Positions 1,977-10,669 of a stretch of DNA of 64,000 nucleotides are shown here, piece by piece (positions within the stretch are counted from its first letter, which is position 1; the number at the start of each line of letters is the position of its first letter). The DNA is taken from assembly GCF_025152745.1 (NCBI RefSeq), contig NZ_CP104041.1:248001-312000 (forward strand), read 5' to 3'. Source of the DNA: Rhizobium sp. WSM4643. GTDB taxonomy: Bacteria; Pseudomonadota; Alphaproteobacteria; Rhizobiales; Rhizobiaceae. The notes under the pieces were generated by a model that was not told the DNA's origin, did not search any database, and worked only from the letters and a program-made list of their open reading frames with translations. The position numbers and the translations under genes are program-made.

Positions 1977-2366
1977 ATGAAAAAAACTTTCAATCCGGCC
2001 TCGGTGCGCCGGCCTTTCGGAAATTACAATCACGGCCTGCTGGTGCCGCCCGGCGCCGCGCTGCTCGTCACGTCGGGCCAGCTTGGTATTGGTCTCGACG
2101 ATACTGTTCCGAGCGACATCACTGCTCAGGCGGAACTCTGCTTCAAGGCGATCAAGGCGATCCTCGAAGAGGCGGAAATGAGGTTTGCCGACGTCATCCG
2201 CATTTCGGGCTTCGTCACCCGCCGCGAGGATTTCCCAGCCTATATGGCTGTACGAGATCGCTATACGCTCGATCCGAAGCCGGTTTCCACCTTGCTCGTC
2301 ATCGGCGGCTTTACCCGCCCTGAGTTTCTCGTCGAGGTCGAGGTGACGGCTGCGAAAATCTTCTAA
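1977..2366 (+). CDS. RidA/YjgF/YER057c/UK114 family protein
   Basis: A 129-residue protein of the usual RidA length, with the family core (LLVTSGQLGIGLDDTVPSDI, then AELCFKAIKAILEEAEMRFAD, VIRISGFVTRREDFPAYM and a C-terminal LVEVEVTA strand). Classical RidA hydrolyses reactive enamine/imine intermediates made by PLP enzymes, using a conserved arginine (Arg105 in E. coli RidA). In my hand alignment that position is Thr (segment KPVSTLLVIGGF), so this protein probably belongs to a Rid subgroup without the classical deaminase arginine. It lies tail-to-tail with the oxidoreductase at 2363, sharing 4 bp. Its position beside an amidohydrolase and flavoprotein operon suggests a role in degrading a nitrogenous ring or amine. 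Confidence 0.9.
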   Translation: MKKTFNPASVRRPFGNYNHGLLVPPGAALLVTSGQLGIGLDDTVPSDITAQAELCFKAIKAILEEAEMRFADVIRISGFVTRREDFPAYMAVRDRYTLDPKPVSTLLVIGGFTRPEFLVEVEVTAAKIF

Positions 2367-2944
2367 AAGCGCTTCATCGCGTCTCCGACGCGGTCGAGGA
2401 ATTTTGCGCGCGTCTCCGGCGTGCAATTGTTCATGTCGTAATGGGCTAGGAACGTCACCGGCCTCAGCGGATTGATCTGCGCCCTCAGCACGCGCTTGAC
2501 GATTTTCTTCGGCGGGTTGCCGGCGACGAAAGCCCGGAAGGGCGTTGCGCCATAAGTCAGGACGGCTGCGAGCTTGCGGATGTGGCGTAGCCGCGATTCC
2601 ACCTTGCCGTCGACCAGCTCGAAGGAAACGCCCGGCAGCCAGACGCGGTCGAAATATCCCTTCAGGATTGCCGGAAAGCCGAAGTTCCAGATCGGGGTGC
2701 AGATCACCAGCCCCTCGGCCGCCTTCAACCTTTCGACATGCGATTCCACTAGCTTCAGATTTTCCGGATAGTCGTGATAGACGAGCCGGTCGTGGCGCGA
2801 GAGCACCGGATCGAACCGCTCTTCATAGAGGTCGCAGCCATCCACAACATGCCCGGCCTTCTCAAGGCTCTCGACGGTTTGCCGGTAAAGCGCCTTGCCG
2901 TAACTTTCCTCGACCGGGTGAGAGTGGAGGACGAGAACCCTCAT
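2363..2944 (-). CDS. NAD(P)H dehydrogenase (quinone), flavodoxin-like fold
   Basis: This 193-residue protein belongs to the Flavodoxin_2/NQO1-like family of FMN- or FAD-dependent NAD(P)H oxidoreductases. It starts with the family signature LVLHSHPVEESYGKALY, has the acidic CDLYEERFDPVLS segment, and the flavin-contact motif CTPIWNFGFPAILKGYFDRV near residues 80-102. It is cytosolic, with no signal peptide. Its start overlaps the stop of the upstream flavoprotein gene by 4 bp (ATGA type), so the two are translationally coupled in the operon 8421 to 2363. It could recycle reduced flavin or reduce a quinone-like intermediate of the pathway. The substrate cannot be told. Confidence 0.88.
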   Translation of the reverse strand: MRVLVLHSHPVEESYGKALYRQTVESLEKAGHVVDGCDLYEERFDPVLSRHDRLVYHDYPENLKLVESHVERLKAAEGLVICTPIWNFGFPAILKGYFDRVWLPGVSFELVDGKVESRLRHIRKLAAVLTYGATPFRAFVAGNPPKKIVKRVLRAQINPLRPVTFLAHYDMNNCTPETRAKFLDRVGDAMKRF

Positions 2945-4350
2945 GAGGCCTCCATCAGGGCCGCCAGGCCGGGGAAGAGATAGTTCTTGCCGGCGTTGAA
3001 ATCGAAATCGGGATTATCCCATGCGATCATCTTGCCGGGATTGAGCAGGCCCTTCGGATCGGTTTCCTGCTTGAAGGCGAGCTGCACCGCGTCGGTGCGC
3101 TTCATGCCGCCTTCTTCCAGCGTATAGCGGTGCGGGTTGAAAATCGGGCATCCATTGTCCTGGTGGATCTTGATGATCTCCTCCAGCCGCTCCTCGGTGG
3201 TATAGCGCACCAGCGGCAGCCCGGAGCACTGGATCTGTCCGTCGAATTTGATGAATTCGAGATGACCCGGAACTTCGTCACCGAAGATTTCGACCATCTT
3301 CCGAACCTTGGCGACATGATCCGGCCCCGGATATTGCACTTGCAGATAGGTGAAGCTCGGGTCGACCTTCAGCGCACGCAATGTCGTGTGGTTCCAGGCA
3401 AGCTCATAGGCATGCGGGATCCCGCGCATGCTTTCCACCTTGTCGGAGCGGAACATGATCTCGCCCTTCTGCGCCGCTGTGAAGGCAAGAAAAGCATCCA
3501 TGGAGTGCGGCGCGATCATCAGCACGGCGATCGACTGGCCCTGACGGATGTAGGGCTTGTGGCGGGTGAAATAGTCGTAAGGAATGGGAGCGGCAATCGG
3601 TGCGATCTCCTTGACGAGGATCCCGTTGCATTTCGCCAGTGCGTCTGAGAAGCGCACCGCTTCCATGAAGTCGTCGTAACCGACGAGCACATCGACCCAG
3701 TCATAGGCAGGTGCAAGCGGCATCTCGATCTCGGTGATGATGCCGTTGGTGCCGTAGGCGTGGCTCACCTTCTGGAGATCCCAGCCGGTGAGATCGAGGA
3801 CACGCGGTTCGGCTTCCATGGTGACGACGCGCAGGCGCAGGATGTTGCCGAGGTCGCGCAAGCCGCCCCAGGTGATCGAGCCGACGCCGCCGGAACCGCC
3901 GGCGATGAAGCCGCCGACCGTCGCCGTCTGCGCGGTGGAGGGGTGGAAACGCAGCTCCTGGCCGGAATGGGTCTTGGTCTGCTTGTCGAGCTGCGCAAGC
4001 ACGATGCCCGGTTCGCAGATGACGCGGCCGGGATTGATCTCCTTGATCTTGTCCATGGCTGCAAGGTTCAGCACGATGCCGCCGGAAAGCGGCATGGCCT
4101 GGCCGTAATTGCCGGTGCCGGCACCGCGCGGCGTCACCGGCACGCCATGGGCATAGGCGACCTTCAGCGTCCGGATGACCTCTTCCTCGGTCTTCGGCGT
4201 GACGACGAGATCGGCCGTCACATTGTCGAGCTGAGCTTTGAGTACAGGCGAATACCAATAGAAATCCCGGCTCTTCTGGCGAACCAGCGCCGGATTGTCC
4301 TCAACGGCGATGCCTTCGAGTTCCTTTTTGATCTTCTGATAATCGGCCAT
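2941..4350 (-). CDS. FAD-binding oxidoreductase, GlcD/PCMH type
   Basis: A protein of 469 residues when started at the ATG at 4350. An in-frame ATG at 4380 exists inside the preceding gene, but the one at 4350 has GGAG seven bases upstream. The FAD_binding_4 (PCMH) domain is clear: PVTPRGAGTGNYGQAMPLSG near residue 70 and VGGFIAGGSGGVGSITWGGL near residue 145. The C-terminal FAD-oxidase_C-like part ends with NPHRYTLEEGGMK and GLLNPGKMIAW, the latter being a typical end of GlcD-type oxidases. Such enzymes oxidise alpha-hydroxy acids, alcohols or amines through a bound flavin. It sits 1 bp after the amidohydrolase stop and overlaps the next gene by 4 bp, so it belongs to one transcript with the importer. 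The substrate is unknown. Confidence 0.9.
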   Translation of the reverse strand: MADYQKIKKELEGIAVEDNPALVRQKSRDFYWYSPVLKAQLDNVTADLVVTPKTEEEVIRTLKVAYAHGVPVTPRGAGTGNYGQAMPLSGGIVLNLAAMDKIKEINPGRVICEPGIVLAQLDKQTKTHSGQELRFHPSTAQTATVGGFIAGGSGGVGSITWGGLRDLGNILRLRVVTMEAEPRVLDLTGWDLQKVSHAYGTNGIITEIEMPLAPAYDWVDVLVGYDDFMEAVRFSDALAKCNGILVKEIAPIAAPIPYDYFTRHKPYIRQGQSIAVLMIAPHSMDAFLAFTAAQKGEIMFRSDKVESMRGIPHAYELAWNHTTLRALKVDPSFTYLQVQYPGPDHVAKVRKMVEIFGDEVPGHLEFIKFDGQIQCSGLPLVRYTTEERLEEIIKIHQDNGCPIFNPHRYTLEEGGMKRTDAVQLAFKQETDPKGLLNPGKMIAWDNPDFDFNAGKNYLFPGLAALMEAS

Positions 4351-4351
4351 G

Positions 4352-5665
4352 TCAGGCTCCAACGACGTTATCGAGTTCACGGTAATCCGGCAGGCTGCGG
4401 TCGATCACCTTGCCGCGGCGAAGCACGACGCGGTCAGACTGCGGACGGGACAGGAATTCACTCCAGCGCCGCGCGCTGAACAGCACGAGATCGGCCGGAT
4501 CGCCGGCGGCGATGCGGCCCTTGTCCGGCCGTCCGACGATGGCGGCGGGCGAGGTGGTGACGACACGGGCGGCGGTATCGAGCGGGTGGTCGAGATGCAG
4601 AATCCGCACGGCCTCGCGGAAGACCTCCACCGGATCGAGATCGCCATAGGCATAGAACGGGTCGCGGGTATTGTCGGATGCGACCGCGGTCGCGACACCG
4701 GCGGCGGCCAGTTCCTTGAACAGCGTGACGCCGCGCCAGCGCGGGGTGCGGCTGGAAGAGCGATCCTGCAGATACATGTTGCACATCGGCAGTGAAATGA
4801 CCGCGATGCCTGCCTTGGCGACCAACTCGACGGTGCGCGCGGCGGTGTCTTCGTCCTGGCGGGCGAGCGAGCAGCAATGACCGGCGGTCACCTTGCCCTC
4901 GAACCCGTTGCGCAGCACGGCCTCGGCGATTGCCTTCAGTGTTTCCACGCCGCGATCATCCGTCTCGTCGACATGCAGATCGACATTCAGGCCCTGCTCT
5001 GCGGCAGTCCTGAAGAGCGTGTCGAGCTGCCAGACAAGCTCCGGCCCCATCCGGGTGACGCCGCCAAGCAGGCCGCCGTTCTGTCGGATTGTTGTGACGA
5101 GATCGGCAAAGAAGGCGCTGTCTGCCATGGCATCCAGCGGGAAGAGGGCGACCGCCTGCAGCGCGATCCTGTCCTTCCAGACATCCCGGATTTCGGCAAA
5201 AACCTCGAAGGAGATGCGATGCTGGGGCGCAAGCGAATCCAGGTGCGTACGGATCAGGCTGGTGCCATGGGCATAGGCGGAGCGGAGCGAGAATTCCATG
5301 CGCCGTTTGACGTCCGCGGCTGACCAGTTGGCCTCTCGATCGGCCCTGACGGCATCGAGCGCGCCCATGAAGCTGCCGTCGGGATTGGCCTGGCGCGGCC
5401 AGATATGGCCTTTGTCGAGATGGGTATGGACATCGGCAAAGCACGGCCAGACCATACCGTCCTTAAGATCGGTCCTGGCGTAATCGGCGGGTGCGGCGCC
5501 GGCCGGCCGGATGGCGGCAATCGTGCCGTCGCTGATGACGATATCGACCGTGGCCAGACCTTCCGTGACCGGCACGTCGACATGCTCGACGGTGACGGCG
5601 GGCACCGTCGCATTGCTCAGCACGAAGCGGGCCGCATTCGGCGGGGATATGAAGGAATAGGTCAT
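4352..5665 (-). CDS. Amidohydrolase, cytosine deaminase-like
   Basis: A 437-residue member of the metal-dependent amidohydrolase superfamily, nearest in motif to cytosine deaminases. The metal ligands are visible as DVHTHLDKGH (near residue 97), the HVDET motif, AGHCCS and the aspartate in VASDNTRDPF. In cytosine deaminase these bind one divalent metal and activate water to deaminate or hydrolyse a ring amide. An unusual N-terminal stretch of about 25 residues precedes the usual beta-sandwich strand. The start overlaps the permease stop (ATGA), so it is coupled to the ABC importer. Because the importer is of the NMT1/THI5 class, a pyrimidine-like or other N-heterocyclic substrate is likely, but true cytosine as substrate is not shown. 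Confidence 0.88.
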   Translation of the reverse strand: MTYSFISPPNAARFVLSNATVPAVTVEHVDVPVTEGLATVDIVISDGTIAAIRPAGAAPADYARTDLKDGMVWPCFADVHTHLDKGHIWPRQANPDGSFMGALDAVRADREANWSAADVKRRMEFSLRSAYAHGTSLIRTHLDSLAPQHRISFEVFAEIRDVWKDRIALQAVALFPLDAMADSAFFADLVTTIRQNGGLLGGVTRMGPELVWQLDTLFRTAAEQGLNVDLHVDETDDRGVETLKAIAEAVLRNGFEGKVTAGHCCSLARQDEDTAARTVELVAKAGIAVISLPMCNMYLQDRSSSRTPRWRGVTLFKELAAAGVATAVASDNTRDPFYAYGDLDPVEVFREAVRILHLDHPLDTAARVVTTSPAAIVGRPDKGRIAAGDPADLVLFSARRWSEFLSRPQSDRVVLRRGKVIDRSLPDYRELDNVVGA

Positions 5666-6507
5666 CAGTTTTCCCGTTTGATGCTGCTTTCATGCCAGCG
5701 ATGAAGGCTCAGCCAGGCGATGAAGGTGGTGAGGCCGAAGATCGCCACCCCAAGCATGGAGAGCATCAACAGTGCCGCAAAGAGCCGTGGTATGTTCATC
5801 CGGTACTGCGCTTCCAGCAGACGGAAGGCGAGACCGGAGCCGGCACCGGCAGAGCCCGCGGCAAATTCGGCGACGACGGCGGCGATCAGCGCCAGGCCGC
5901 CGCCGATGCGAAGACCGGTCATGAAATAGGGTTGGGCGGCAGGCAGTTTGAGAAAGAGCAGCGTCTGCCAGCGTGAGGCGCCGTAGAGCTCAAAGAGGTT
6001 GATCAGATTGTGGTCGACGCTCTTCAGGCCCTGGACCATGTTCGACAGGATCGGGAAAAAGGCGACGAGGAAGGCGCAGATCAGCAGCGCAACCTGCGTG
6101 GAGGGCGCGTAGATCAGGATCAGCGGCGAGATGGCGACGATTGGCGTTACCTGCAGGATGACGGCAAGGGGATAGAAGGCAAGCTCGACCCAGCGCGACT
6201 GCACGAGAAAGATCGCAAAGCCGACGCCGCCGGCAAGCGCCAGCATCAGTGAGATGAAGGTGATCTTGGTGGTGACCCAGAGGGCAGGGGCAAGCGTAGC
6301 CCAATCCGTCACGAAGGCGTTTGCCACAGCGGCCGGTCCTGGCAGGATATAAGGCGGCACGCCCGACAATTTCACATAGGCGTACCAGACGAGGATCATC
6401 AGGGCGATGACGAGGAAGGGGATGGCGATGCGCAGCGCAAGATCGCGGCGCCTTGCGCTTGCGGTACCCTTAACGAGCAGCGGCGATGTGTCTGTTTCGT
6501 CGCTCAT
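5665..6507 (-). CDS. ABC transporter permease, SsuC/TauC/NrtB type
   Basis: A 280-residue inner-membrane permease with six predicted hydrophobic segments, beginning with a cytosolic tail and a first helix around AIPFLVIALMILVWYAYV. It carries the BPD_transp_1 EAA-type loop (LYGASRWQTLLFLKLPAAQP) that docks on the ATPase. The ATG at 6507 shares its A with the stop of the upstream ATPase gene (TGATG); a longer in-frame upstream extension would lie inside that gene and is not credible. The family serves nitrate, sulfonate, taurine, thiamine-precursor and pyrimidine importers. Here it works with the ATPase (6507-7370) and the NMT1/THI5-like binding protein (7405-8421). Confidence 0.93.
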   Translation of the reverse strand: MSDETDTSPLLVKGTASARRRDLALRIAIPFLVIALMILVWYAYVKLSGVPPYILPGPAAVANAFVTDWATLAPALWVTTKITFISLMLALAGGVGFAIFLVQSRWVELAFYPLAVILQVTPIVAISPLILIYAPSTQVALLICAFLVAFFPILSNMVQGLKSVDHNLINLFELYGASRWQTLLFLKLPAAQPYFMTGLRIGGGLALIAAVVAEFAAGSAGAGSGLAFRLLEAQYRMNIPRLFAALLMLSMLGVAIFGLTTFIAWLSLHRWHESSIKREN

Positions 6508-7370
6508 CAATGATCCCCTGCCGAATTGATCGCCCCGATCAGCGAATGCGACACCGTTTCGCAGGCCTTGCGGTATTCCTCCGAGGTGCGGTAGTGGGCG
6601 TCGCGTTCGAGGCTGGTGATCAGCGGGACGTCGGCATGCACGCGCCCGGGCCTTGCCTTCATCACGACGATGCGGTTCGAGAGATAGGCGGACTCGAAGA
6701 CCGAATGCGTCACGAAAATCACCGTAATGCCGGTCGCTTTCCATAGCCGCAGCACGTCGTCGTTGAGCTTCTGGCGGGTGATCTCATCGAGCGCGGCGAA
6801 AGGCTCATCCATCAGCAGCAGCTTCGGCTTCGTCACCAGCGCACGGGCGATCGAGACGCGCATCTTCATGCCGCCGGAAAGTTCGCGCGGATAGCCCTTG
6901 GCAAAATCCTGAAGGCCGACGGTGGTCAGCACTTCCATGATTTGATCATGCGCGGCTGCCTTCGAAACGCCCCTCAACCTCAGCGGCAGATGGACATTGT
7001 CGAACACGTTCTTCCAGGGCATCAACGTCGGCTCCTGGAAGACAAAGCCGATATCGCCCTCCGGCAGACCTCTGGAATTGATGCGAGAACTCGGCCAGTC
7101 GATCGTTCCCGAGGTGACATCGCCGAGACCGGCTATGATGCGCAGCGCCGTCGACTTGCCGCATCCGGAAGGGCCGAGCAGGCTGACGAACTCGCCGCTT
7201 TCGACCGTGAGCGACATGTTCGAAAGCGCGGCAGTGCCGCTGGAAAAGACCTTCGAGACCGACTGCATGACAACAAGCGGCCGCTTGCGCGTCTCTTTCG
7301 GGGATACCGCCTGGGCGTTTGCTGAGAGCATTGCTGTCTCGTTCATGCGGGAGGATACGGCCCGCCACAT
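6507..7370 (-). CDS. ABC transporter ATP-binding protein, SsuB/TauB type
   Basis: A 287-residue cytosolic ATPase. Walker A is LLGPSGCGKST, the Q-loop is FVFQEPTLMPW, the ABC signature is LSGGMKMRVSIARAL, Walker B is LLLMDEPFAALDE and the switch histidine is in FVTHSVFESAYLS. These features place it with nitrate/sulfonate/taurine/thiamine-precursor importers. The start is uncertain: the ATG at 7370 has GAGG almost touching it, while the ATG at 7346 lacks a good ribosome site. About 35 residues precede the first ABC strand either way. It is the second gene of the operon, 34 bp after the binding-protein gene, and energises import by the permease at 5665. Confidence 0.93.
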   Translation of the reverse strand: MWRAVSSRMNETAMLSANAQAVSPKETRKRPLVVMQSVSKVFSSGTAALSNMSLTVESGEFVSLLGPSGCGKSTALRIIAGLGDVTSGTIDWPSSRINSRGLPEGDIGFVFQEPTLMPWKNVFDNVHLPLRLRGVSKAAAHDQIMEVLTTVGLQDFAKGYPRELSGGMKMRVSIARALVTKPKLLLMDEPFAALDEITRQKLNDDVLRLWKATGITVIFVTHSVFESAYLSNRIVVMKARPGRVHADVPLITSLERDAHYRTSEEYRKACETVSHSLIGAINSAGDH

Positions 7371-7404: not shown

Positions 7405-8421
7405 CTACTTCTTCAGTGCCACGCCGGTGCTCTTGCAGACGAACTTCGTCGTAAAGGCTTTGGTGTAGTCCGTCTCCGGCTTGAAGACCTTGATCGCCAC
7501 CATCTCGTTGAAGAACGTCTTGTAGTGCGCATCGGTGATGCAGCCGATGCCCTTGTCGAGGCTATCACCGGATTCGATGATCCCGTATTCCTTCATCTTG
7601 GCGATGGAGTAGGCGAGCTGGCCATCCGTCATTTCAGGATTATCCTTCTTGATCAGTTCGTTCGCCTTGGCGTTGTCGCCGTAGAGGTAGTTGTACCAGC
7701 CTTCGATCGAGGCATCGACGAAGCGCTGCACGACGTCGGGTTTGCCGTCGATCATTGTCTGCGTCGTCGTGATCATCGTCGAATAGGGCGAGTAGCCGTT
7801 GTCGGCGAGCAGGAAGACCTTCGGCTCGAAGCCTGCCTGCTTCTGGATCTCGTAGGGTTCGGAGGTCAGGTACCCCTGCTGAGCTGAGTCCTTGTCTGCA
7901 AGGAAGGGCGCGGGACTGAAGTTATAGGGCTTGTACTGCTCGTCCTTGAAGCCTTTGAAGTTGGCCTTCATCCATTCGAAATAGGTGAGGTAGCCGTCCT
8001 TGCTGAGGAACAACGTTTTCAGCTTGGCGAGATCCTCGAACTTGTCGATGCCGTTATCCGGATGGGCGATCAGCACCTGGGGATCCTTTTGGAAGATTGC
8101 GGCGACATCGACCAGCGGAATGCCCTGTTCGACGGCGGATACCTCTCCCTGCGGACCGCCCATGTAGAAATCGAGCTTGCCGGAGATCAGCAGCGCGCTG
8201 TTTGCAGCATTCGGGCCGCCCTGCACGATGGTGACGTCGAGGCCATATTTTGCATAGGTGCCGTCGGCGACGGCTTGGTAGAAGCCGCCATGTTCCGCCT
8301 GGGCAAGCCAGTTCGTCCCGTAGCTCACCTTGTCGAGGGCGAGCGCCGGCGAGGCGGCGGCAAGCACCGAGGCGAGGCCGAGGCAGCGCAGGAATTGCAT
8401 CTTCGTCTGTGTTTTCAACAT
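7405..8421 (-). CDS. ABC substrate-binding protein, NMT1/THI5-like
   Basis: A 338-residue periplasmic binding protein, with a signal peptide (MLKTQTKMQFLRCLGLASVL, then AAASPALA and cleavage before LDKVSYG). The mature part begins KVSYGTNWLAQAEHGGFYQA, which is the NMT1/THI5 pattern of proteins binding thiamine-pyrimidine precursors, formylaminopyrimidines and related small molecules. The ATG at 8421 is preceded by AGGGAA; a longer frame to 8583 would run through the promoter and operator region and is rejected. It is the first gene of the operon running left to 2363. The closest cognate signal is the LysR-type operator region just upstream. Confidence 0.92.
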   Translation of the reverse strand: MLKTQTKMQFLRCLGLASVLAAASPALALDKVSYGTNWLAQAEHGGFYQAVADGTYAKYGLDVTIVQGGPNAANSALLISGKLDFYMGGPQGEVSAVEQGIPLVDVAAIFQKDPQVLIAHPDNGIDKFEDLAKLKTLFLSKDGYLTYFEWMKANFKGFKDEQYKPYNFSPAPFLADKDSAQQGYLTSEPYEIQKQAGFEPKVFLLADNGYSPYSTMITTTQTMIDGKPDVVQRFVDASIEGWYNYLYGDNAKANELIKKDNPEMTDGQLAYSIAKMKEYGIIESGDSLDKGIGCITDAHYKTFFNEMVAIKVFKPETDYTKAFTTKFVCKSTGVALKK

Positions 8422-8489
8422 GGTTGGCAGTTCCCTTTTTGAGCCGAGGGAAGCCTTGCTCAGCCCCCTTTTGAGGGAATTTGAGCCAT

Positions 8490-8590
8490 TGCCATGCGCT
8501 TTGAAAAGCATCAAAATTCGTGCGCATTGATGCCTTTTCGGCATCTCTGGGAAAGCTGAAGATAATTTGTGCGCCATGCGCAAAATTTAT
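8490..8590. promoter_or_regulatory. Divergent promoter and putative LysR operator region
   Basis: The 183-bp gap between the binding-protein gene and the LysR gene holds repeated TGCGC(A) boxes. The first element is an imperfect palindrome with arms AAAAGCATCA (8504-8513) and TGATGCCTTTT (8528-8538) around a TGCGCAT core. The second is TGCGC-CAT-GCGCA (8570-8582) flanked by AATTT and AATTT, just upstream of the LysR start. The 15-mer at 8571-8585 recurs exactly on the other strand at 10425-10439, upstream of the creatininase gene, and AAAAGCATCA recurs at 10413. This pattern fits a LysR protein controlling both units and itself. Binding is inferred. Confidence 0.65.
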
Positions 8591-8604
8591 GCATTGGAGA
8601 GATC

Positions 8605-9594
8605 ATGTTGCACTCCAGACGCCTTCTTTACATCAACGAGATCGCCCGTTGCGGTTCGATCCGCAAGGCGGCCGCGCGCCTCAACGTGGCGTCGTCGGCG
8701 GTCAACAGGCAGATTTTGGCGCTGGAGGAGGAGATCGGGGCGCCGCTTTTCGAGCGGCTGCCGCGTGGCCTGCGGCTCACGGCTGCCGGCGAACTCTGCA
8801 TCGAGCATATTCGGGACGTGCTGAAGAATTATGAGCGCCTGGAGGGGCGCATCCGCAGCCTCAAGATGCAGCAGGCAGGCAAGGTGCGCATGGTGACGAC
8901 CGTTGGGCTTGCCGCCGGGCCGCTGCCCGAAATCATCGCGCGCTTTCTTTCAGAGCATCCGCGCGTCTTCGTCCAGCTGCGCAACGATACCGGCGGCACG
9001 ACGGCCAACCCTGTTGTATCAGGCGAGGTGGATATCGGTCTCGGCTTCAACATCCCCGCCATGCCCGGCATCCGCACCCTCGGAAATTTCGATATCCCGA
9101 TCGGTGTCGTGCTGCCGCCGGGGCATCAGCTGATCGGCCCCGGGCCGATCAACCTTGCCGATGTCACCCAGGAAAAACTGGTTCTGGCGCAGCCGGGCAC
9201 CAGCCTGCGCGAGGTGATCAACCTTGCTTTTGCGCGCCTGCCCATCTCGGTCGAGCCGGTGCTGGAAACCAATGCATCGGAGATGCTGAAACAGCTTGTC
9301 AAATGCGGCACAGGGCTGACGCTGCTCAATCCGCTCGACGTCATCACCGAATGCCGGCGCGGTGAACTTGTCTTCCGGCCGATCGCCGAGCCGCATGCGC
9401 GTTACCAGCAGATGAAGCTGTTTGCGCGTGCCCGCGCGCCCCTCGACGCGGCCACCAGCCTTTTCGTCGAATATCTGCTCGCCGAACTGCTCGGCCTGGT
9501 GCAGGAATTGCAGGCCAAGGGTCATATCCCACCGGATGTGAAACCCGCGGCTGAGCCTATTTCACATAGAGATTCGAAAGCGGATAGGCCTTGA
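8605..9594 (+). CDS. LysR-type transcriptional regulator
   Basis: A 329-residue LysR protein. The winged helix-turn-helix occupies about residues 4-64 (RLLYINEIARCGSIRKAAAR, then LNVASSAVNRQILALEEEIG and LFERLPRGLRLTAAG). A linker helix and a LysR_substrate effector domain with GEVDIGLGF and VLPPGHQL follow. The ATG at 8605 follows GGAGA by four bases, and an upstream in-frame ATG at 8569 would start inside the palindrome, so 8605 is preferred. It is transcribed divergently from the ABC-importer operon, the classic arrangement for a LysR activator that senses the pathway substrate. Its 3' end overlaps the converging creatininase gene by 38 bp, an unusually long tail-to-tail overlap. Confidence 0.94.
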   Translation: MLHSRRLLYINEIARCGSIRKAAARLNVASSAVNRQILALEEEIGAPLFERLPRGLRLTAAGELCIEHIRDVLKNYERLEGRIRSLKMQQAGKVRMVTTVGLAAGPLPEIIARFLSEHPRVFVQLRNDTGGTTANPVVSGEVDIGLGFNIPAMPGIRTLGNFDIPIGVVLPPGHQLIGPGPINLADVTQEKLVLAQPGTSLREVINLAFARLPISVEPVLETNASEMLKQLVKCGTGLTLLNPLDVITECRRGELVFRPIAEPHARYQQMKLFARARAPLDAATSLFVEYLLAELLGLVQELQAKGHIPPDVKPAAEPISHRDSKADRP

Positions 9595-10354
9595 GATCGT
9601 GGAGCAGCTCGACAAACCCCTTGACCTGATGGCGGCAGATCGCCTCGCCCTTTTCGGCTGTGGCGATCGAGGCATCGCCGACCACGCCGAAGGGATTGAG
9701 GTCATGCGCGATCCAGGCCAGCGAATGCGGCGGCAGAGGCTGAAGAAATTTCGATTGCTCTCGCATCCCTTCGGCCTTCGAGGCAAAGTTTTGGGCCTTG
9801 TCCATGCGCACCAGTTCGGGGCGGAAGTTGAGCATCAACGACGTCTCGACATCACCGCCGTGGATGCCGTATTTGCTCTCGTGATCGCTGACCATGCCTT
9901 CCGGATGACCGAAACGGCCCCATTGGGTGGAGACCACCGCCATTTGATGGCGCACGCGCAGTTCGCGCGCGACGATGCTCATGATGTCGACATTGCCGCC
10001 GTGGGAGTTGACGATCACCATCTTCCGCAGCCCGGCTTCGGCAACCTTTGCGCCAATCGCCGTCCAGACGGGGATGAGCAGTTCGGCACTGAGCGACAGA
10101 GTGCCGGGGCCGTAGATGTGTTCGTTGGCCTTGCCGATCTCCTGTGTCGGAAGAACCAGGATATCCAGATCCTCCGGCTGCTGCCGCTTCAACTCCGCCA
10201 GCATGCCGGTCGCGATCGCGACATCCGTTGCGACCGGCAGATGCGGGCCGTGCTGTTCGGTCGAGGCGATAGGCAGGATAGCAATCGTGGTCTCGGGGGA
10301 GAGGCCGGCAAAATCATATGTGTTGAGCTCGTTCCAGTAAAACGGCGTGGGCAT
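9557..10354 (-). CDS. Creatininase-family amidohydrolase
   Basis: A 265-residue protein of the creatininase family. Metal and catalytic residues are visible in LPIASTEQHGPHLPVATDVA (Glu and His), in IVNSHGGNVDIMSIVAREL, and in IHGGDVETSLML. The family hydrolyses cyclic amides (creatinine) or removes formyl groups (ArfB of riboflavin/F420 synthesis). The ATG at 10354 is used because the frame further upstream runs through the motif region with no ribosome site; AGGGA precedes 10354. The gene converges on lysR, overlapping it by 38 bp, and carries in its promoter the same 15-mer as the importer/lysR promoter, so it probably belongs to the same regulon. It would open or deformylate the imported compound or its deaminated product; this step is inferred. 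Confidence 0.88.
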   Translation of the reverse strand: MPTPFYWNELNTYDFAGLSPETTIAILPIASTEQHGPHLPVATDVAIATGMLAELKRQQPEDLDILVLPTQEIGKANEHIYGPGTLSLSAELLIPVWTAIGAKVAEAGLRKMVIVNSHGGNVDIMSIVARELRVRHQMAVVSTQWGRFGHPEGMVSDHESKYGIHGGDVETSLMLNFRPELVRMDKAQNFASKAEGMREQSKFLQPLPPHSLAWIAHDLNPFGVVGDASIATAEKGEAICRHQVKGFVELLHDLKAYPLSNLYVK

Positions 10355-10410
10355 GCGGTCATCCCTTTTCGTCACCTGCTTCGATAGGGAGTAGGGAATA
10401 AAGATAAGCC

Positions 10411-10440
10411 GGAAAAGCATCATTTTTTGCGCATGGCGCT
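10411..10440. promoter_or_regulatory. Second copy of the putative LysR operator
   Basis: Upstream of the creatininase gene the plus strand holds AAAAGCATCA (10413-10422), two bases later TTTTGCGCATGGCGC (10425-10439). The latter is the exact reverse complement of 8571-8585, and the former repeats 8504-8513. The remaining gap up to 10669 shows no further gene. It holds an unexplained minus-strand coding-like tail (stop at 10468) and must contain the promoter of the aldehyde oxidoreductase operon. Confidence 0.6.
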
Positions 10441-10669
10441 GCTTTTTTTCGCGCGCATCGGCGGCCGTTACTCCGCGGGCGCTTCAGCATCCAATCCGAC
10501 TTTACTGAATATGTGGCTCGCAGCATCATACGAGCGCGGCTCGGGGAATTCATGAGCTAGATCGATAACCGTATGCAACGGAAAGGGACTAATCAGACGG
10601 CGGAGTTGCACTACCTCAGCAGACGGCGTCGACGCGCGCCTATGTCCAACGAGCAAGGTGGAACACTTC

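Follow-up and report, generated by a model that had tools for sequence, protein, structure and literature searches.

We analyzed a 64-kb window from Rhizobium sp. WSM4643 (64,000 nucleotides; positions 248,001 to 312,000 of contig NZ_CP104041.1). At this locus, which lies on a plasmid, a lysR gene stands between an ABC importer operon, which is divergent from it, and a creatininase-family gene, which is convergent with it (Table 1). The importer operon is predicted to have six genes, running from 8421 to 2363, as their intergenic gaps are at most ~73 bp or the genes overlap. (The gene boundaries in the operon are as annotated in a close relative, L156.) The LysR protein has the expected pair of domains, an N-terminal PF00126 (E = 2.1e-19) and a C-terminal PF03466 (E = 1e-38). 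The gaps upstream of the importer operon and of the creatininase gene share a 38-bp element. Read toward the target genes, it is AAAA(A/G)GCAKC-N16-GATGCTTTYC, with the centers of its half-sites 21 bp apart, or about two helical turns. Judging from its conservation and distribution, both gaps very probably carry one operator of the LysR encoded between them.

A scan with the LysR protein gave 102 relatives, and we took the best 80 as loci for comparison (L005-L084). These loci contain the neighboring genes as far as their contigs reach, except for RidA. We compared 81 divergent gaps (the 80 loci and the window) and 80 creatininase gaps; L013 was dropped from the latter because its locus runs off the contig. 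When the right half-site is used to align the gaps, the left half-site is in the same register in all 81 importer gaps and all 80 creatininase gaps. The literal pattern GCAKC-N16-GATGC is present in 76/81 and 78/80, respectively. The departures are a right half of GCTGC (five importer gaps) and a left half of GGCAAC or GGCACC (one creatininase gap each).

To quantify conservation, we used the mean share of the window's base over the loci outside the R. leguminosarum complex. On the importer side, this share is 0.95 for 8502-8545, versus 0.65 for 8571-8585, 0.71 for 8561-8570, and 0.43 and 0.53 in the adjoining stretches. On the creatininase side, the right and left halves have shares of 0.97 and 0.86, versus 0.59 for a 15-mer that is discussed below and 0.39 just upstream. 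We also built weight matrices from one kind of gap, again leaving out the R. leguminosarum complex, and scanned the other kind. Whether trained on importer gaps or on creatininase gaps, the matrices put their best match at the claimed site in every gap of the other kind (80/80 and 81/81). The lowest real scores were 13.3 and 24.5, while letter-shuffled gaps (five per gap) reached at most -1.0 and -9.8.

A deeper comparison added 14 loci: 13 from genomes of the family and one from another family (G203, whose LysR is 69% identical). These represent nine genera, including the window's own. In the importer gaps, the ten half-site letters are exact in 10 loci, are one off in three (L137, L143, and L153), and are degenerate in one (G404). 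L137 retains the dyad GATGCC-N5-GGCATC. In the creatininase gaps, the element is exact in 11 loci, with one mismatch in two and two mismatches in another (L148). Farther out, G171 (L140) has a LysR that is only 40% identical and a different gene order, and it carries GTTGCC-N5-GGCAAC both in its lysR gap and in its creatininase/importer gap. In the stretches that we fetched from two distant clusters, G085 (LysR 43% identical) and G215 (39%), neither of two exact patterns was matched.

The 6.44 Mb genome of the window's strain has two perfect matches to GCAKC-N15-YGATGCTTTYC, both at this locus. Six further sites carry one mismatch each. All six are missing from the ten matches (E ≤ 10) of a motif model that we built from 61 distinct sites in Rhizobium loci (18 importer sites and 43 creatininase sites). 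With up to two mismatches, there are 66 matches, versus 39 for the reversed pattern, so the weaker matches are mostly due to chance. The model ranks the two copies at this locus first (Table 1), and its next match has E = 0.08. Neither the pattern nor the model found a convincing third operator in this genome, including near RidA or the deoxyribosyltransferase gene, where the initial annotation had suggested looking for a further site.

The element also tracks the LysR across genomes. (Searches over 40 genomes ran with stricter filters.) Among 199 genomes from the family, the LysR is present in 16 (E ≤ 1e-100), and the motif is present in those same 16 (E ≤ 1e-3). Another 12 of the 199 have only weak motif matches (E from 0.002 to 0.009). 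In 14 of the 16, both motif matches flank lysR; G365 has one match, and in G404 the matches are elsewhere. Among 120 genomes from the genus, 103 contain the LysR, and the motif is found in all 103 and also in G454. (In this set, we checked the positions of sites, beyond their counts, for individually named genomes.) Exactly two sites are present in 100 of the 103, with one site in G444 and three in G462 and G487. The extra sites, and the site in G454, look like relics. In G487, the third site (L169, G487:C17:18710-18744) precedes a second creatininase-like frame that is apparently truncated, with no open reading frame (ORF) of at least 200 amino acids. In G462, the ATG that follows the third site opens no ORF of at least 80 amino acids. 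G454 has no match to the LysR at E ≤ 1e-100, and its motif match covers only positions 1-26 of the model.

Table 1. Genes, putative regulatory sites, and predicted promoters at the lysR locus (window coordinates)
Feature	Position	Strand	Remarks
Flavodoxin-fold NAD(P)H-dependent oxidoreductase	2363-2944	-	Last gene of the predicted operon
FAD-binding oxidoreductase (FAD_binding_4)	2941-4350	-	
Amidohydrolase annotated as "cytosine deaminase" (NCBIfam PRK07583)	4352-5665	-	
ABC permease	5665-6507	-	
ABC ATP-binding protein	6507-7331	-	
NMT1/THI5-like solute-binding protein	7405-8421	-	First gene of the importer operon
lysR, proposed regulator	8605-9594	+	LysR helix-turn-helix and substrate-binding domain
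Creatininase-family gene	9557-10354	-	Start at 10354 inferred from relatives
Putative shared operator, importer copy	8502-8539	-	Reads GAAAAGGCATCAATGCGCACGAATTTTGATGCTTTTCA; E = 3.1e-10 with the model on its own genome; upstream of the ABC importer operon
Right half-site GATGCTTTTC, importer copy	8503-8512	-	Overlaps the predicted -35; proposed activation site
Dyad GATGCC-N5-GGCATC	8529-8545 (center 8537)		Proposed LysR recognition site; contains TGCC-N5-GGCA (8531-8543)
Putative shared operator, creatininase copy	10411-10448	-	Reads AAAAAAGCAGCGCCATGCGCAAAAAATGATGCTTTTCC; E = 1.9e-6 with the model on its own genome
Right half-site GATGCTTTTC, creatininase copy	10412-10421	-	Overlaps the predicted -35 at 10411-10416
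Left half-site AAAAAGCAGC, creatininase copy	10438-10447	-	Share 0.86 over 10438-10448
Predicted importer-operon promoter	8479-8507	-	-35 TTTTCA (8502-8507), 17-bp spacer, -10 TCAAAT (8479-8484); start ~8472
Predicted creatininase promoter	-35 10411-10416; -10 10388-10393	-	Start ~10381
Predicted lysR promoter TCGGCA-N17-GATAAT	8538-8566	+	Consensus scan, 9/12 matches; -35 within the dyad
15-mer, copy 1	8571-8585	+	At the predicted lysR transcription start; outside the shared operator
15-mer, copy 2	10425-10439	-	Chiefly the spacer between the half-sites of the creatininase operator; mean share of window base 0.59

In the importer gap, the left part of the element belongs to a dyad. Its core, TGCC-N5-GGCA, has the T-N11-A form and the dyad symmetry that one would look for in the site of a LysR protein. 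In both gaps, the conserved columns fit a promoter of the form TTTTC(A/G)-N17-hexamer, and from this we predicted where transcription of the importer operon and of the creatininase gene starts. Relative to the predicted importer start, the dyad is centered at -65 and GATGCTTTTC spans -40 to -31. Given the predicted starts of both targets, the putative recognition site would lie near -65 and the putative activation site at -35. For lysR itself, a consensus scan of the gap gave the promoter in Table 1 and one other candidate on the + strand (8489-8517). Since the -35 of the former lies within the dyad, we predict that LysR represses its own gene; this layout suggests that lysR is autoregulated.

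Several observations weigh against one LysR operator in both gaps. First, the creatininase gap lacks the T-N11-A dyad: the GGCAKC half alone is conserved, and the matching T position is not. Second, consensus scans detect neither the importer promoter nor the creatininase promoter, even though they detect the lysR promoter. (Consensus scans commonly miss promoters that depend on an activator.) Third, G404 has the LysR, yet its importer-side operator is degenerate (at best, 3 mismatches of 10), and the model misses its creatininase copy, even though both half-sites are there with their spacing. Instead, the model's matches in G404 are elsewhere, and the better one lies ahead of a gene for a Rieske oxygenase, next to other LysR genes. 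Fourth, in the 19 kb of G171 (L140), there are two more matches to TGCC-N5-GGCA outside of the two gaps. Fifth, conservation is moderate in the part of the lysR leader that surrounds the 15-mer (0.65-0.71, versus 0.43-0.53 in adjoining stretches), so this part may have some role. Finally, the co-occurrence of the element with the LysR is partly due to the gain or loss of the cluster as a unit, and the training set of the model consisted of Rhizobium loci aligned on the right half-site. Because the tested genomes overlap in kind with the training loci and the genes travel together, co-occurrence supports, rather than proves, that the element belongs to this LysR.

The element in G404 that precedes the Rieske oxygenase gene (L142, G404:C48:14638-14671) has the same spacing and lies ~70 bp upstream of the gene, which is of the VanA_C type. 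Two further LysR genes and a gene of the isochorismatase family lie beside it. It is possible that this is an extra target, or that a paralogous regulator uses the same code.

Alternatively, the 38-bp element could be the site of another, unlinked regulator, with the LysR acting elsewhere. The lack of a canonical dyad in the creatininase copy and the LysR genes adjoining the element in G404 would both fit. But the element tracks this LysR over the 199 and 120 genomes, and in a Pfam scan of ten proteins, the LysR was the sole DNA-binding protein. Also, one would expect more targets for an unlinked regulator than the two sites seen in this genome. We consider an unlinked regulator to be unlikely.

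We think it quite improbable that the operator is instead the 15-mer, GCGCCATGCGCAAAA. The initial annotation had linked the importer, lysR, and the creatininase gene by this 15-mer together with a 10-mer, AAAAGCATCA. The letters and coordinates that it gave for both repeats are right: the 15-mer has one exact copy in each gap (Table 1), and the 10-mer is at 8504-8513 and 10413-10422, on the + strand both times. The 64-kb window has no third copy of the 15-mer with fewer than three mismatches, and the two copies are its only exact sites in the genome. Two other sites in the genome have one mismatch. Copy 1 along with the preceding base forms a T-N11-A palindrome (8570-8582), and both copies are also found on two plasmids that we fetched later, L155 (99.5% identity) and L156 (99.0%). 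However, the 15-mer is not conserved among the relatives: it is exact in 1/81 lysR gaps, namely the window's own, and in 7/80 creatininase gaps. The lysR-gap copy has one or a few letters changed in near relatives and more changes in the rest; R. johnstonii 3841 (L157) and R. brockwellii CC275e (L158) have the 15-mer at the creatininase side only. Nor is its arrangement kept. In the divergent gap, it is on the + strand and 57 bp from the 10-mer; in the creatininase gap, it is on the - strand and 2 bp away. Given the lysR promoter candidate, copy 1 would be at the start of lysR transcription.

We therefore rejected the 15-mer as the operator, and the partner of the creatininase site is not the lysR-gap 15-mer but the element at 8502-8539. 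The 10-mer is the right half of this element in both gaps. The initial annotation had judged two long motifs together in two gaps 1.9 kb apart to be unlikely by chance, but 25 exact words of at least 15 bases are repeated in the window (6 direct and 19 inverted, of which two are self-overlapping palindromes), so the length of the 15-mer is unremarkable by itself. When two gaps share a long exact repeat, it may lead to the right regulon yet mark the wrong bases. The proposed link between the three transcription units is well supported by the comparisons above, with the 38-bp element as its marker.

Although those 25 repeats arise regardless, we see almost no prospect that the two gaps resemble each other by chance or as nonfunctional inherited sequence, as the half-sites and their spacing are kept in nine genera while their surroundings diverge (shares of 0.95 versus 0.43-0.71 between the importer element and lysR, and of 0.97 and 0.86 versus 0.39 upstream of the creatininase halves).

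Our best reading of the locus is a compact local LysR regulon for a nitrogen compound, comprising the importer operon, the creatininase gene, and lysR. This fits the "at least seven genes" of the initial annotation: six in the importer operon plus the creatininase gene, or eight with lysR. We propose that a LysR tetramer would anchor at the left part of the element, at about -60 to -65. In the importer gap, the anchor would be the TGCC-N5-GGCA dyad; in the creatininase gap, it would be a lone GGCAKC half. In its inducer-bound state, the LysR would contact GATGCTTTTC over the -35, and this contact would activate transcription of the creatininase gene as well as of the importer/catabolic operon. 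The LysR would repress its own gene, whose predicted -35 is in the dyad. The inducer would probably be the imported compound or a breakdown product.

The regulatory arrangement is ordinary in kind. In the AtzR/atzDEF regulon for cyanuric acid, an operon that deals with a nitrogen heterocycle is likewise transcribed divergently from a LysR-type gene. The enzymes are different: those here are an amidohydrolase, two flavoproteins, and a creatininase-family enzyme, alongside an ABC importer. A published description of LysR proteins (PMC8407307) gives their usual binding region as 50-60 bp; a T-N11-A site is often near -65, and the activation site covers the -35/-10. The general layout described there for a regulator with a divergent target operon resembles the one predicted here: the genes are divergent, the T-N11-A dyad is about -65 from the predicted start, a putative second site lies over the predicted -35, and the predicted lysR promoter overlaps the dyad. 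Unlike the layout given there (PMC8407307), a second promoter lies 1.9 kb away here, beyond lysR, and has the same element with half of the dyad.

We searched the literature for such a cluster or regulon and met no description of one. On balance, we modestly favor the view that this is an undescribed, self-contained LysR regulon of the Rhizobiaceae for the uptake and breakdown of a ring nitrogen compound. One LysR would read the 38-bp element at two promoters that flank its own gene and would require the full dyad at just one of these. The result is an exact candidate operator and a short list of targets (two promoters) for an orphan catabolic cluster. The lysR of this cluster is present in 103 of 120 genomes from the genus, and an operator-reporter should be usable for finding the substrate.

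The proteins themselves give some clues as to the substrate. Among solved structures, the best match for the solute-binding protein is an uncharacterized binding protein (4nmy, E = 2.6e-8), and binders of pyrimidine precursors follow weakly. The amidohydrolase scores 699 bits against the NCBIfam equivalog for cytosine deaminase (PRK07583), whose cutoff is 403. It can be aligned to the cytosine deaminase of E. coli (1k6w) over ~400 residues, and the HxH and HxxE metal-site motifs are present. We compared active-site residues with those of 1k6w. The active-site pattern could be read in 87 of 97 loci. In all 87, the catalytic Asp is followed by Asn (SDN), unlike in 1k6w (GHDD). Where 1k6w has the Gln of FPQE, the aligned residue in the window's protein is Leu; the pattern for this FPL/FPQ site matched in just 47/87 loci, so we used it for the window only. 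Because Asn follows the catalytic Asp, we lean toward a substrate other than cytosine. We also considered that the amidohydrolase might be a pterin deaminase, but this was unsupported: the matches among solved structures are cytosine deaminase, isopropylammelide amidohydrolase, and one dihydroorotase.

The RidA gene (1977-2366) is on the opposite strand from the importer operon and has no operator site. Among L005-L084, RidA was not found in 17/80 loci, some of which end at contig ends. It is opposite to the operon in 53/80, and in 10/80 it is on the operon's strand, 4-89 bp past the last gene.

Within the lysR leader (8561-8604), past the promoter, TGTGCG and ATGCA are kept in many relatives. 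The convergent lysR and creatininase genes share 38 bp at their 3' ends (9557-9594). In a relative, the creatininase coding sequence is annotated from an ATG that is equivalent to 10423, which is inside the putative operator. Since the half-site lies 62-70 nt from the creatininase ATG in relatives, a start at 10354 is likelier than one at 10423.

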